From Deltaproteobacteria bacterium (lineage in GTDB: Bacteria > Bdellovibrionota > Bdellovibrionia > Bdellovibrionales > Bdellovibrionaceae), in contig JAFLCC010000001.1 of NCBI GenBank assembly GCA_017302835.1, forward strand, positions 124,001 to 188,000: a DNA stretch of 64,000 nt, written 5' to 3'. The position numbers and the translations under genes are program-made. Every line of letters starts with the position of its first letter. The first letter of the stretch is position 1. Below the pieces are notes generated by a model. That model was not told where the DNA came from. It saw only the letters and a program-made list of their open reading frames with translations, and did no database searches. Positions 25,956 to 30,607 of this stretch are shown here, one piece after another.

Positions 25956-26537
25956 TTAGAAATAATAGATGGTGCCAACAGAAGCTGCTGGAATAACAAG
26001 GCTCCTTGCCAAGCTGAATAAGAAATTAAATTCTAAATAAAATGTATTTCCCATTAAATCCCCATCCAACTGATTGTATTGCATTCCGAAATGCGTGTTT
26101 AAAAAATCAATTCCGAACTGCCCTTGCTTTAATTCGCTTTTTGATAACACCTGATCCAAAACATAAGAGTTTCCCTGCAAATCCTGCACAACAGAACTAT
26201 AAAATCTGGAGTAGCCAAGGGTAAAATAAGGAGTGAAATACTTTCCTCTAAATGATTTTTTCCACCCTAAAAAAAATGAATTAAATCCATAACCCTTGCC
26301 AAAGCCTAGCTGACTTGAATTATCTTCATTAAAATTAATATCAACAACACCACCAAGGTAGCCAAAAATTCCCAACAGCCCTATGCCAGCTCCTAATTTA
26401 CGATCATTTCTTAGCTCGAAATTAGAAAAGTATTCAGATTTTTCAAATACAGGCGATTGTCTGGCTTGAACTTTGATATTAATTCCAATCAAAAGAAACA
26501 CGATAAAAAGCCGTAAAGAATCTTTATTAAGACTCAT
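25956..26537 (-). CDS. Hypothetical outer-membrane protein
   Basis: A 193-residue protein with a signal peptide ending around VQARQ. Alternating strands rich in Phe, Tyr and Gly (KGYGFNSFFLGWKKSF, YFTPYFTLGYSRFYS, NTFYLEFNFLF) suggest a small beta-barrel. The last residue is Phe, as in many outer-membrane proteins recognised by Bam. No specific family recognised. Its 3' end is convergent with the Lys/Ala peptide gene and its terminator. Upstream lies the MCE transporter operon, 73 bases away. Confidence 0.65.
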   Translation of the reverse strand: MSLNKDSLRLFIVFLLIGINIKVQARQSPVFEKSEYFSNFELRNDRKLGAGIGLLGIFGYLGGVVDINFNEDNSSQLGFGKGYGFNSFFLGWKKSFRGKYFTPYFTLGYSRFYSSVVQDLQGNSYVLDQVLSKSELKQGQFGIDFLNTHFGMQYNQLDGDLMGNTFYLEFNFLFSLARSLVIPAASVGTIYYF

Positions 26538-26610
26538 GATACCCTCATTCTCCTAATGATGAACGTTGTTATGATATTTATATTCCAGCTGCGAACTGCA
26601 AACAACTAAT

Positions 26611-27387
26611 TTAGAATATTTTTGCTTTAATTCCTTCCGCTTGCAGAAACTTACGAATGGCGGGACCATCTAAAGGTTCCAATCGAAACAACAACTTGTG
26701 TAACAAATCATAACTGTCCTCAGCTTTTTTTGATCTTAAGCCCGTAGTTATGACTGCCAGATCGTCACTGATTTTTATGGCATTATCTATCAATCTGACC
26801 ATGTCTTTATTTTTCGAAACTTTATCCATTAACACTAGGGTTTTATTAAAATTTGTCGTCAACTTATCTAGCTGAAGAATCACGTTCGAGACAGAACCTT
26901 CATTTTTATTTAACATTTCGATCACTTTTCCTGCTAATCCATAACTTTGAGATATAATTTGATCAATTCTTGGAGGATCCTCGCCACGCACAAAATCACC
27001 AGACTTTAACTCTTCTTGATTAAGAGATCCTGGTGATATTTCTAAAAATTTTTCACCAATTACACCTGCTAAATTAATGAAATATTTTGAGTCTTTCCTC
27101 ACGCTGGTCCAAGCTTTTTTGTCTACGGTTATTTTTATTTTTAACTTAACTTCTTCTCCTGAAGAATTCTTAAAATCAGGGGTAAACGTAATGCTTTTCA
27201 CCTTCCCGACTTTGATACCCATAACTCTTACTGGAGACCCTTCCTCTATGCCACCAGCATAGTTGAACATGACATTAATGGTGTTGGTATCGCTTAACGG
27301 CGAAATAAGTCCCACCAAATATGCAAAAACAACTATTAATACAATTGAAAACACACCCAATATGCCAACTTTTAATTCAACCTTCAT
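26611..27387 (-). CDS. mlaD: MCE-domain lipid transport protein (MlaD-like)
   Basis: One N-terminal membrane segment (VGILGVFSIVLIVVFAYLVGL) is followed by a single MCE domain with YAGGIEEGSPVRVMGIKVGKVKSI, the family signature. A helical tail follows. MCE proteins form hexameric rings that carry phospholipids between the membranes and attach to MlaE-type permeases and MlaF-type ATPases. The C-terminal tail runs to 258 residues, longer than E. coli MlaD (183). It is last in an operon with two MlaE and two MlaF genes. Confidence 0.9.
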   Translation of the reverse strand: MKVELKVGILGVFSIVLIVVFAYLVGLISPLSDTNTINVMFNYAGGIEEGSPVRVMGIKVGKVKSITFTPDFKNSSGEEVKLKIKITVDKKAWTSVRKDSKYFINLAGVIGEKFLEISPGSLNQEELKSGDFVRGEDPPRIDQIISQSYGLAGKVIEMLNKNEGSVSNVILQLDKLTTNFNKTLVLMDKVSKNKDMVRLIDNAIKISDDLAVITTGLRSKKAEDSYDLLHKLLFRLEPLDGPAIRKFLQAEGIKAKIF

Positions 27388-27395
27388 TCTTACCC

Positions 27396-28088
27396 CTAAT
27401 AAAAATATGAAAACGTATACGACAATACAAAATCAAGAACTATAATAGCTATAGATGCAAAGACTACACTTTGGGTGGTAGCATTCCCCACCCCATCGGC
27501 GCCTGACTTACATCTGAAACCAAAAAAACAACTAATCAATGGAATAACCATCCCAAAAAACATGGCTTTTATAATCGCAAAAATAATATCTTGAAAGTTC
27601 ACAAATCGATTCATGGCGGTTAAAAACATAGATGTGGTGTAACCAAGAATTTGCTCAGAAACGAGCATCGCGGCAAAAATACACACCATATTGGCAATCA
27701 CACATAAAATCATACACCCAATTGTCGTAGCAAATAACCTTGGAATCACAATAAAATTTACGGGATCAATGCCGAGCATTTTTAATGCATCGATTTGCTC
27801 TGTTACTTTCATAGATCCAACCTCTGCCGCAATCCCTGCTCCTACTCGTGAAGTGAGTAGCAAAGCTGTCACTACGGCTCCCAGTTCTCTAAGGATTAAT
27901 AATGAGGCAAAGCCTGGAACCATAGAATCATTTTGAATAACCAGTTTCATATGAAATGAAGACTCAAGAATGGTCACAACTGCAGCGAAACAAACACAAA
28001 ATACGATAATCCATAAGCTTCCATTGGCAACAAAATAGAGTTGTTGGATAGTTTCTTTAAATCGAAACGGTTTAGTTAACAGATTCAT
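27396..28088 (-). CDS. mlaE: MlaE-family permease (second copy)
   Basis: This integral membrane protein of 230 residues has several hydrophobic segments. It carries the MlaE signatures LILRELGAVVTALLLTSRVGAGIAAEVGSMKVTEQIDAL and RCKSGADGVGNATTQSVV. It should form the transmembrane part of a phospholipid ABC transporter. GGGA precedes the ATG. It lies 24 bases after the first permease copy, where a 16-bp tandem duplication overlaps the upstream stop codon. Confidence 0.9.
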   Translation of the reverse strand: MNLLTKPFRFKETIQQLYFVANGSLWIIVFCVCFAAVVTILESSFHMKLVIQNDSMVPGFASLLILRELGAVVTALLLTSRVGAGIAAEVGSMKVTEQIDALKMLGIDPVNFIVIPRLFATTIGCMILCVIANMVCIFAAMLVSEQILGYTTSMFLTAMNRFVNFQDIIFAIIKAMFFGMVIPLISCFFGFRCKSGADGVGNATTQSVVFASIAIIVLDFVLSYTFSYFY

Positions 28089-28094
28089 ATTTCC

Positions 28095-28126
28095 CTTTAG
28101 CTATACATTTCTTTAGCTATACATTT
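28095..28126. repeat. 16-bp tandem duplication at an MlaE gene boundary
   Basis: CTTTAGCTATACATTT occurs twice in a row, followed by another CTTT. On the minus strand it duplicates the last codons and stop of the upstream MlaE gene, so that a second copy of its KEMYS-stop end lies just beyond the first. Confidence 0.9.
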
Positions 28127-28892
28127 CTTTAAAAACGGTTAAAGCAATTTCTCCAATAAAACTAGTCACCCAATCGACGACAACAATTGAAACCATCGTT
28201 GTTACCGCCGTTGAAACTACGGCTTTGCCAACTCCTTTGGCTCCTCCTGAAGTGTAAAATCCTTTGTACGTGCAAATGGTGGCTAAAACCAATGCAAAGG
28301 CTAAACATTTAACTAAACCCATAACTAAAGACGGCCAGGCCAAAATGGTAGGAATATGGCGAACGTATTCTTCTGGATTAATTCCAGCAAATACTACTCC
28401 TAAAATTACACCTCCAAGTACTGACATCATAAGACCACTGGTCAATAGAAAAAATGAAGCAATGATAATTCCAATAAACCTAGGTAAAATGATTTCTTGA
28501 ATAGGGTCTGAGCCCAAACATCTTACGGCATCGATCTGTTCTGTAACTCTCATCGTTCCTAACTCTGCAGAGGTATAGGCTCCTACTTTTCCAGACAACA
28601 TAAACGCAATCAATAAGGGTCCAATTTCCCTGATAGTTCCACTTGTAGCAAGCCCTCCCAAATAAGCCATGGCTCCAAATTCATTTACCTGAAGAGCAAA
28701 CTGCACCGTCATGATGGCACCAACAAAAAAACCGGCCATTGCCGTTGTCGGTAAGCTTTGTAAGGTGACATTCCAAATTTGTTCATAAATTAATTTTCTG
28801 GTGCAAGGACGTAAGAATAAGGTCTTAATGATATCCAACAAAAACAAAATGGATTTTCCGAAATCTTCTAAAAACAATTTCAGATCTTTCAA
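28113..28892 (-). CDS. mlaE: MlaE-family permease (first copy)
   Basis: 259 residues, polytopic. MlaE signatures are GPLLIAFMLSGKVGAYTSAELGTMRVTEQIDAVRCLGSDPI and TSGGAKGVGKAVVST. It begins by overlapping the last four bases of the ATPase gene upstream, so it is probably its cognate. It is followed by a second, diverged permease. The two could form a heterodimeric transmembrane core. Confidence 0.92.
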   Translation of the reverse strand: MKDLKLFLEDFGKSILFLLDIIKTLFLRPCTRKLIYEQIWNVTLQSLPTTAMAGFFVGAIMTVQFALQVNEFGAMAYLGGLATSGTIREIGPLLIAFMLSGKVGAYTSAELGTMRVTEQIDAVRCLGSDPIQEIILPRFIGIIIASFFLLTSGLMMSVLGGVILGVVFAGINPEEYVRHIPTILAWPSLVMGLVKCLAFALVLATICTYKGFYTSGGAKGVGKAVVSTAVTTMVSIVVVDWVTSFIGEIALTVFKEMYS

Positions 28893-29656
28893 TTAAGCTC
28901 TCCATTTTTAGAATTTTGATTCAGCGACCTGGCTTCGCTTAAAAAATCAATTACCAATTGCTTTTCGGACTTTAAAAGTTCCTCTGGCGTTCCCTGATCG
29001 ACAACTTGACCCTGGTCAAGTACCACAATCCTGTCGGCAATCTTAAGAGCACAGGGCATGTCATGGCTGACGACCACTGAAGTTGTATTTAACTTTTGTG
29101 ATAGGTCTTTAATTAAGTTATTCACCGCATTTGTCGTCACCGGATCTAGGCCCGTTGTGGGCTCGTCGAAAAGTAATATTTTTGGTTCCAAGGCGATGGT
29201 TCGAGCAAGACTAACTCTTTTTTGCATCCCATATGATATTTCTGATGGTTTTTTTTGTTGAATACCAATGATGTTAACCAAACGTAAGGCTTTATCTACT
29301 TTTTCAGCGATTTGATTTTCAGTTAAAGTATAATGTTTTCTGAGGCCAAATGCCACATTCTCGAAAATGGTTAATGAATCAAAAAGCGCTGGGTGCTGAA
29401 AAACCATTCCACATTTTTTTCTTACATTTAAAAACTGAATTTCTGAAAATTTCGAAACTTCCTGGTTATCGATCCAAATTTCCCCAGCATCAGGTTTTAA
29501 AAGCCCGACCGTATTTTTTAGCAACACTGATTTTCCAGTGCCAGATGTTCCCAAAATAAATATAATTTCACCCTGCTTAATTTTTAAATTAATGCCTTTT
29601 AAAATTTTTCTATCACCAAAACTCTTTTCAAGGTTTTTATATTCCAACATTAGCAT
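28889..29656 (-). CDS. mlaF: MlaF-like ABC ATPase with intact catalytic Glu and deviant signature motif
   Basis: An ABC ATPase of 255 residues. Walker A is GTSGTGKS (36-43), Walker B is LLFDEPTTGLD with Glu165, and the H-loop is VVSHDM with His198. The signature is ISYGM (140-144), where family members have ISGGM or LSGGM; Tyr142 replaces a Gly that contacts ATP in the partner. I use the ATG at 29656 (another at 29650; a TTG at 29680). It overlaps the first MlaE gene. Its partner ATPase is encoded 100 bases upstream and shows the complementary changes. Confidence 0.88.
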   Translation of the reverse strand: MLMLEYKNLEKSFGDRKILKGINLKIKQGEIIFILGTSGTGKSVLLKNTVGLLKPDAGEIWIDNQEVSKFSEIQFLNVRKKCGMVFQHPALFDSLTIFENVAFGLRKHYTLTENQIAEKVDKALRLVNIIGIQQKKPSEISYGMQKRVSLARTIALEPKILLFDEPTTGLDPVTTNAVNNLIKDLSQKLNTTSVVVSHDMPCALKIADRIVVLDQGQVVDQGTPEELLKSEKQLVIDFLSEARSLNQNSKNGELN

Positions 29657-29757
29657 AATATCTAATAGGATATTAAACAAAAGACTAAGGGGTCAAAATC
29701 GATTTAGGCTAAACATAGTTTTAATCACTTTCGTCTAGAGAGCTTGCAAAAAAAAGA

Positions 29758-30516
29758 TTATTGTAAGGATAAAAGCGGACCTTCCAACGCTCCACGAATG
29801 AACTGTTTCACAGCGGGATGATTATGGGCTTTTGTCTCTGATTCATTGCCTGTAATAATTAATTCTTTGTTATAAACCATGGCAATTTTATCTGCCATTT
29901 GATAAGCGCGATTCATGTCGTTTGTTATCGTTACGACCGTTGAATTGTTTTTGTTTTTTAAATCTAAAATTAATTCGATTATTTTTTTGGAAGTTATAGG
30001 ATCAAGGCCTGCTGTTGGATCATCATAAAAAATAAGTTCTGGCTTCAAAGCTAAGGCTCTGGCAATTCCAAGTCTTTTTTGCATCCCTCCACTTATTTCA
30101 TCTGGAAAGAGGTTCTTTGCGTGTAAAATCCCAACGGCATTCAAATAAAATTCTACTATGGAAGAGATCTCACTTTCAGAATTAATCCCCGATTCCCTTA
30201 AGGGAAAGGCAATATTTTCAGAGCAAGACAGTGAATCGAAAAGAGCATTTTTTTGAAAAAGCATACCGATTTTTTTTAGAATTTCTAATTTCTCTGACCC
30301 CTTCATTTGCGACCAGTCTTTTTCGTAAACAAGGACCTGCCCCTGAGTGGGTTTAATCAATCCAGCTAAGGTCTTAAGCAAAACCGTTTTTCCATGACCA
30401 CTCGGGCCCACAATGACTAAAGACTGATTGCTTTCTACAAGGAGTTCTATGTTTTGAAGAACAATTTGTTTATCAAAAGCAACTTGTACATTTTTAGCTT
30501 CAATTACTTTTGCCAT
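29758..30516 (-). CDS. MlaF-like ABC ATPase with degenerate Walker B and H-loop
   Basis: An ABC ATPase of 252 residues. Walker A is GPSGHGKT (37-44) and the signature is the canonical ISGGM (141-145). Walker B reads IFYDDPTAGLD, with Asp166 in place of the catalytic Glu, and the H-loop reads ITNDM, with Asn199 in place of His. Loss of both residues predicts a site that binds but barely hydrolyses ATP. It is the first gene of the MCE locus and is likely to pair with the ATPase at 28889. Start ATG 30516 has GAGG upstream. Confidence 0.88.
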   Translation of the reverse strand: MAKVIEAKNVQVAFDKQIVLQNIELLVESNQSLVIVGPSGHGKTVLLKTLAGLIKPTQGQVLVYEKDWSQMKGSEKLEILKKIGMLFQKNALFDSLSCSENIAFPLRESGINSESEISSIVEFYLNAVGILHAKNLFPDEISGGMQKRLGIARALALKPELIFYDDPTAGLDPITSKKIIELILDLKNKNNSTVVTITNDMNRAYQMADKIAMVYNKELIITGNESETKAHNHPAVKQFIRGALEGPLLSLQ

Positions 30517-30607
30517 TATGACTCGCCTCAATCTTACTTGTATAAAACTTCAATATAAGTTTAGATAAAATTTCTGAAAATGCAAATCTAATAGGAGTTT
30601 TATATCC

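Follow-up and report, generated by a model that had tools for sequence, protein, structure and literature searches.

Two MlaF-like ATPases of a conserved MCE operon in Bdellovibrionota are predicted to form a heterodimer with one degenerate ATP site

The window that we analyzed is a 64,000-nucleotide stretch of a Bdellovibrionaceae genome (assembly GCA_017302835.1, contig JAFLCC010000001.1, positions 124,001 to 188,000); the genome itself is 3.6 Mb in size and 99.98% complete, and its relatives are the Bdellovibrionales and the wider Bdellovibrionota. An operon of six genes occupies window positions 25956–30531 on the minus strand and is transcribed from 30531 down to 25956. Its first gene encodes an MlaF-like ABC ATPase, here called B (29758–30531), and this is followed on the same strand by a second MlaF-like ABC ATPase, A (28889–29680), two MlaE-family permeases, E1 (28113–28892, with its start overlapping the end of A) and E2 (27396–28088), the only MCE/MlaD protein of the operon, D (26611–27387), and a signal-peptide protein, ORF6 (25956–26537). 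Pfam assigned ABC_tran to A and B, MlaE to E1 and E2 (PF02405, E = 2e-61 and 5e-62, respectively, which meets the test for the MlaE family) and MlaD to D (PF02470, E = 1.4e-19), in agreement with the initial annotation, which had placed two MlaE permeases and one MlaD at this locus but had missed ORF6. Divergent from the operon, beyond B, lie two genes that from their sequences we take to be sucC and sucD. A scan of the operon for promoters and terminators performed no better than on shuffled sequence. A short direct repeat (AAAGAAATGTATAGCTAAAG...) at 28094–28128 lies partly in the last bases of E1 and partly in the interval that precedes E2. A shortened N-terminus of E2 was also considered as a feature of the family, but in relatives the distance from E1 to the E2 core has a median that would accommodate ~27 more residues, and the idea was abandoned.

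D consists of an N-terminal transmembrane helix, an MCE domain and a helical C-terminal part. Its AlphaFold model, at pLDDT 72 only moderately confident and used for the domain outline only, shows a helix at 3–25 together with the MCE strands, as expected of an MCE protein with an N-terminal transmembrane helix. Two stretches of D stand out for their conservation across the phylum, namely the C-terminal tail FLQ.EGI.A.IF (window 26611–26650) and a near-invariant RGEDPPRIDQLISQ motif that follows the MCE domain. ORF6 is predicted to be an eight-stranded outer-membrane beta-barrel: modelling (pLDDT 92.5) gave a small barrel that matches those of OprF and OmpA. The single sequence from the window had no Pfam match, and a weak match to OMP_b-brl was obtained for 8/46 members of the ORF6 family. 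In many relatives, too, the sixth operon gene is an ORF6.

The two ATPases depart from the canonical ATP-site motifs at different places. Using the solved A. baumannii MlaF (7d06: LSGGM, DEP, SHD) as the reference for alignment, we found that each residue under discussion falls at the motif claimed for it. B (motifs GPSGHGKT, LFQ, EISGGM, YDDP and ITND) has a normal signature, with Gly148 of SGG in place, and is degenerate at Walker B and the H-loop: its second Asp, Asp171 (codon GAT, 30019–30021, minus strand), takes the position of the catalytic Glu, and Asn204 (AAC, 29920–29922, minus strand) that of the H-loop His. A (GTSGTGKS, VFQ, EISYGM, FDEP and VSHD) is canonical at Walker A, the Q-loop, Glu173 (29162–29164, minus strand) and His206 (29063–29065, minus strand), and its signature reads SYG, with Tyr150 (TAT, 29231–29233, minus strand) replacing the first Gly. 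The alignment thus bears out what had initially been read from the two proteins, namely Asp for Glu, Asn for the H-loop His and a normal ISGGM in B, and normal Glu and His with an ISYGM signature in A; the numbers used there (165/198 in A and 166/199 in B) denote these residues as numbered from in-frame ATGs. MlaF-like ATPases that have their own MlaE elsewhere in the source genome (contig C3, at 146 kb and 294 kb) are canonical, as are about 20 ordinary MlaF paralogues from the surveyed genomes, at all three positions.

The closest solved MCE ATPases to A and B are 7d06, 6xbd and relatives, MlaF being the best PDB match of both, so that the operon does contain the MlaF-like ATPases expected of an MCE system. 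It resembles the MlaFEDB complexes of E. coli, A. baumannii and P. aeruginosa in its MlaE-family permeases, its single-TM MCE protein and its MlaF-like ATPases. MlaFEDB has the composition MlaF2E2D6B2, from one ATPase gene and one permease gene (PMC7790496), whereas the operon described here has two ATPases, two permeases and a degenerate site. Matches to the NCBIfam models fell short of equivalog level for MlaF (A 207 and B 181 against a cut-off of 441) and for MlaD (D 64.5 against 135). We detected no match to MlaA (PF04333) or MlaC (PF05494) in the source genome, with E. coli and Caulobacter controls positive for both, and no MlaB/STAS-like gene among the six genes of the operon. Going by these sequence comparisons, the operon encodes a transporter of the MCE/Mla class and not a canonical E. 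coli-type Mla system.

Three more MCE loci are present elsewhere in the source genome. The third MCE locus (G000:C23:18873-21429; L017 5874-8430) comprises an MlaE, an ATPase and an MlaD; this ATPase, the only one linked to the locus, is degenerate in almost all of its motifs (SEQGAGKS, Q-loop Gln to Asp, IPGRI, DDPSVGLGQ and SYDE). Of 60 relatives, 44 have an orthologue of this ATPase, and the orthologues that were fetched lie beside their MlaE and MlaD; the Walker A Lys has changed to Arg in several, and the replacement of Q and of E by D is for the most part retained. This locus would be an apparent case of a conserved pseudo-ATPase MCE system. There is also an orphan MlaF-like ATPase without a permease beside it (G000:C9:47589-48410; L016 6590-7411), which is 48% identical to B, reads DDP and LSGGM, keeps its His and nests inside B in the ATPase tree; a second copy is found in one relative (G021), and this protein may substitute for B as a partner of A. 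In that tree, A forms a single clade (support 100/97), and B is not one clade when the midpoint root falls on the C23 ATPases, which are very divergent. The long branches and lower identities of B indicate faster evolution than in A.

Orthologues of E1 were found in 46 of 60 relatives (54–79% identity, with the next best MlaE at ≤36%), in 83 of the 119 genomes of the class and, at about 40–51% identity, in other classes of the phylum. Phyla beyond the Bdellovibrionota were reached solely by a scan for E1 peptide patterns in one genome per GTDB species, from which distant homologues can escape and whose coverage is thin. The scan yielded 79 loci, almost all of them in genomes titled as Bdellovibrionota, including one in the Bdellovibrio bacteriovorus kdesi genome (L136), which shows the site pattern set out below, and one ordinary outsider locus (L150). 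Across the class, and in further classes of Bdellovibrionota, the genes run in the order B-A-E1-E2-D, ORF6 often being present as well, and the loci of relatives have one MCE gene per operon. In nearly all loci A and E1 overlap or adjoin within a few bases, and in one they are fused into a single reading frame of 580 aa (L121:3930-5669, the same as L188:3609-5348) that leaves SYG, DEP and SHD intact and has B upstream; on account of this fusion, we place A with E1.

Six genomes (G001, G020, G021, G025, G042 and G061) had no B in the fetched neighborhood of A, and in each a B bearing those same N and D residues was located at another place in the genome, on another contig than A in G042, G021 and G020; in G135, a B-like ATPase is in place beside A. 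The sole exception among the A-bearing genomes searched was G004 (89% complete), in which no B was found. Twelve genomes without E1 have no B and possess only ordinary, canonical MlaF. A and B co-occur and are lost together, and B is retained even where it is unlinked from A; evidence that each ATPase forms a homodimer with a separate permease, which the initial annotation named as a refutation, was not encountered. One genus of relatives with small genomes (g3; G007, G026, G031, G034, G036 and others, 2.4–3.3 Mb) lacks both E1 and B, and in it the C23 pseudo-ATPase was also absent where tested.

We surveyed the ATP-site residues in 94 non-redundant A/B pairs (<80% identity) from independent genomes. 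Following the definition of a composite ATP site in PMC7756269, site 1 was taken as the Walker A, Q-loop, Walker B and H-loop of A plus the signature of B, and site 2 as the same parts of B plus the signature of A. Site 1 was canonical without deviation in every pair (n = 94): A had its Glu in 94/94, His in 93/93, Walker A Lys in 94/94 and Q-loop Gln in 94/94, and the signature of B had GG in 94/94. No readable pair had a canonical site 2, and its deviations came in about 20 different combinations. The signature residue of A was Y in 78 pairs, F in 13, H in 1 and L in 1, and never G (93/93 readable). The H-loop position of B was N in 74, S in 16, G in 1, T in 1 and H in 2, the His being replaced in 92 of 94, and its catalytic-Glu position was D in 73, E in 20 and S in 1 (n = 94). 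Both B proteins that keep the H-loop His (L066 and L168) lack the catalytic Glu, and every readable pair joins a B with D/S at the Glu position and/or N/S/T/G at the His position to an A with a Y, F, L or H signature. B kept its Walker A Lys in 91/91, and its SGGM signature and the LD of its D-loop were invariant.

The initial annotation had anticipated that the degenerate residues of one ATPase would be paired in relatives with a degenerate signature in its partner, and this was upheld in every readable pair of the 94. The part of that pattern made up of H-loop loss in B and signature loss in A proved near-universal, but its Walker B Asp could not be retained as an essential element, given that 20 of the 94 pairs, outside the order, have Glu; judged from these sequences, the Asp is order-specific and a feature of only part of the phylum. 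Relatives without the substitutions, which would have refuted the pairing, were looked for and were not met among the 94 pairs. The 94 pairs share ancestry and so are not 94 independent events; the site 2 substitutions probably arose once and were then retained. The weight of the argument lies in the long conservation of the split pattern, in which, as far as residues can tell, site 1 is held fixed while site 2 drifts.

An ABC transporter with a degenerate site should have two different NBDs with all deviations in one composite site and the other site canonical, and should combine a signature change in one half with a Walker B and/or H-loop change in its partner; the pairs fulfil both expectations. 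The observed pattern is what would be expected if A and B formed an obligate heterodimer with a single degenerate ATP site, although such a heterodimer is inferred and not shown. We consider it very likely that the operon encodes an MCE/Mla-type ABC transporter with A/B and E1/E2 heterodimers, a ring of D, a catalytic site 1 and probably ORF6 as a partner, its physical heterodimerization and asymmetric hydrolysis being inferences. The ATPase core of this transporter would be the A/B heterodimer and its permease core an E1/E2 heterodimer under a ring formed by D, the single MCE protein, and the most likely docking would seat A on E1 and B on E2. Site 1 would hydrolyze ATP. Retention of the Walker A Lys by B points to ATP binding at site 2 as well, with hydrolysis there presumably slow or absent; as in ABC exporters that have a degenerate site, the ATP held there could maintain the dimer in a partly closed state through the cycles of site 1. 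The substrates are inferred to be lipids, and ORF6 would be the candidate outer-membrane partner; with neither MlaA nor MlaC detected in the genome, the system must end at the outer membrane in another way than E. coli Mla does.

The operon, with its two permeases and two ATPases, could instead specify two transporters, each with its own ATPase homodimer (A2 on E1 and B2 on E2), that have a common MCE protein or act in sequence. The ATPases of the solved MCE complexes consulted here are indeed homodimers, both MlaF (PMC7790496) and MceG (PMC9882608), and co-conservation of the operon alone would also fit two transporters used together. However, A2 would carry an aromatic signature at both sites and B2 would lack the H-loop His at both. 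Neither homodimer would then have a canonical site, and the invariance of the Glu and His of A and of the SGG of B in the 94 pairs is understandable only if these residues meet in one site; the co-loss of B and E1 and the single MCE gene per operon also weigh against this explanation, which we regard as improbable.

A further possibility is that A forms a homodimer that tolerates a Tyr or Phe signature, and that B, as a regulatory subunit or one in decay, takes no part in the catalytic dimer and stands in for MlaB. The faster evolution of B and the lack of an MlaB-like gene among the six operon genes would suit such a role, and the three additional MCE loci in the genome might supply partners. 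Yet the SGGM, Walker A Lys and D-loop LD of B are invariant, a decaying or regulatory protein would not retain exactly the signature that A is missing, and an A homodimer would be without a canonical signature at both sites; we give this explanation very little credence. Neutral variation or assembly and sequencing artefacts, to which the D/E variation at Walker B among B proteins might be credited, can be set aside almost entirely, as chance or sequencing error at these codons is excluded by recurrence of the pattern in 94 non-redundant pairs from independent assemblies, that of B. bacteriovorus kdesi included, and the ordinary MlaF paralogues that these genomes also encode are canonical.

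An A/B heterodimer with a single canonical site would have counterparts outside the MCE class, such asymmetry being known in exporters of drugs and peptides. In TAP/ABCB2-B3, TM287/288, TmrAB, BmrCD and, as a full-length case, CFTR, all defects likewise fall in one composite site, with a signature change in one half and Glu-to-Asp and H-loop changes in the other (PMC7756269). Among human degenerate sites, signature changes are universal and Glu-to-Asp is the next commonest change, often accompanied by H-loop changes (PMC7756269). These exporters are type I, with fused TMD-NBD chains, whereas the operon here encodes separate subunits and MlaE permeases. Within the MCE class, mycobacterial Mce1 places a YrbE1A/YrbE1B permease heterodimer over an MceG homodimer and has six different MCE proteins (PMC9882608); it shares with our operon two different MlaE-type permeases in one transporter, but the operon has two different ATPases and one MCE protein, and is thus not of the Mce1 type. 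The distinct architecture proposed in the initial annotation accordingly stands for the mixed ATPase pair and not for the mixed permease pair, for which Mce1 is a precedent (PMC9882608). In the open-access literature, subscription papers being outside our scope, no previous description of an MCE system with two different, paired ATPases came to light, nor did any pertinent work on MlaE in Bdellovibrio. The novelty lies in the mixed ATPase pair in the MCE/Mla class, the pairing being inferred.

The functional advantages of a crippled ATP site in ABC transporters have been called unclear (PMC7756269). If the pairing is true, it would represent a second origin of ATP-site asymmetry, in a class with unrelated permeases and beyond the exporters studied for it so far, and hence an independent test; because the origins would be independent, features common to both transporter classes would likely be essential. 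We judge the evidence evenly balanced on the broader proposal of a one-site hetero-oligomeric MCE transporter (A-E1/B-E2) that originated independently of the exporters and that, taken with a second MCE system of this lineage, whose sole linked ATPase is degenerate almost throughout, would make loss of ATP-site symmetry recurrent in the envelope lipid transport of the Bdellovibrionota. For predatory bacteria without recognizable MlaA and MlaC (in the source genome at least), the operon would supply a candidate envelope lipid transporter, and it defines this candidate as six genes in a culturable species, Bdellovibrio bacteriovorus.
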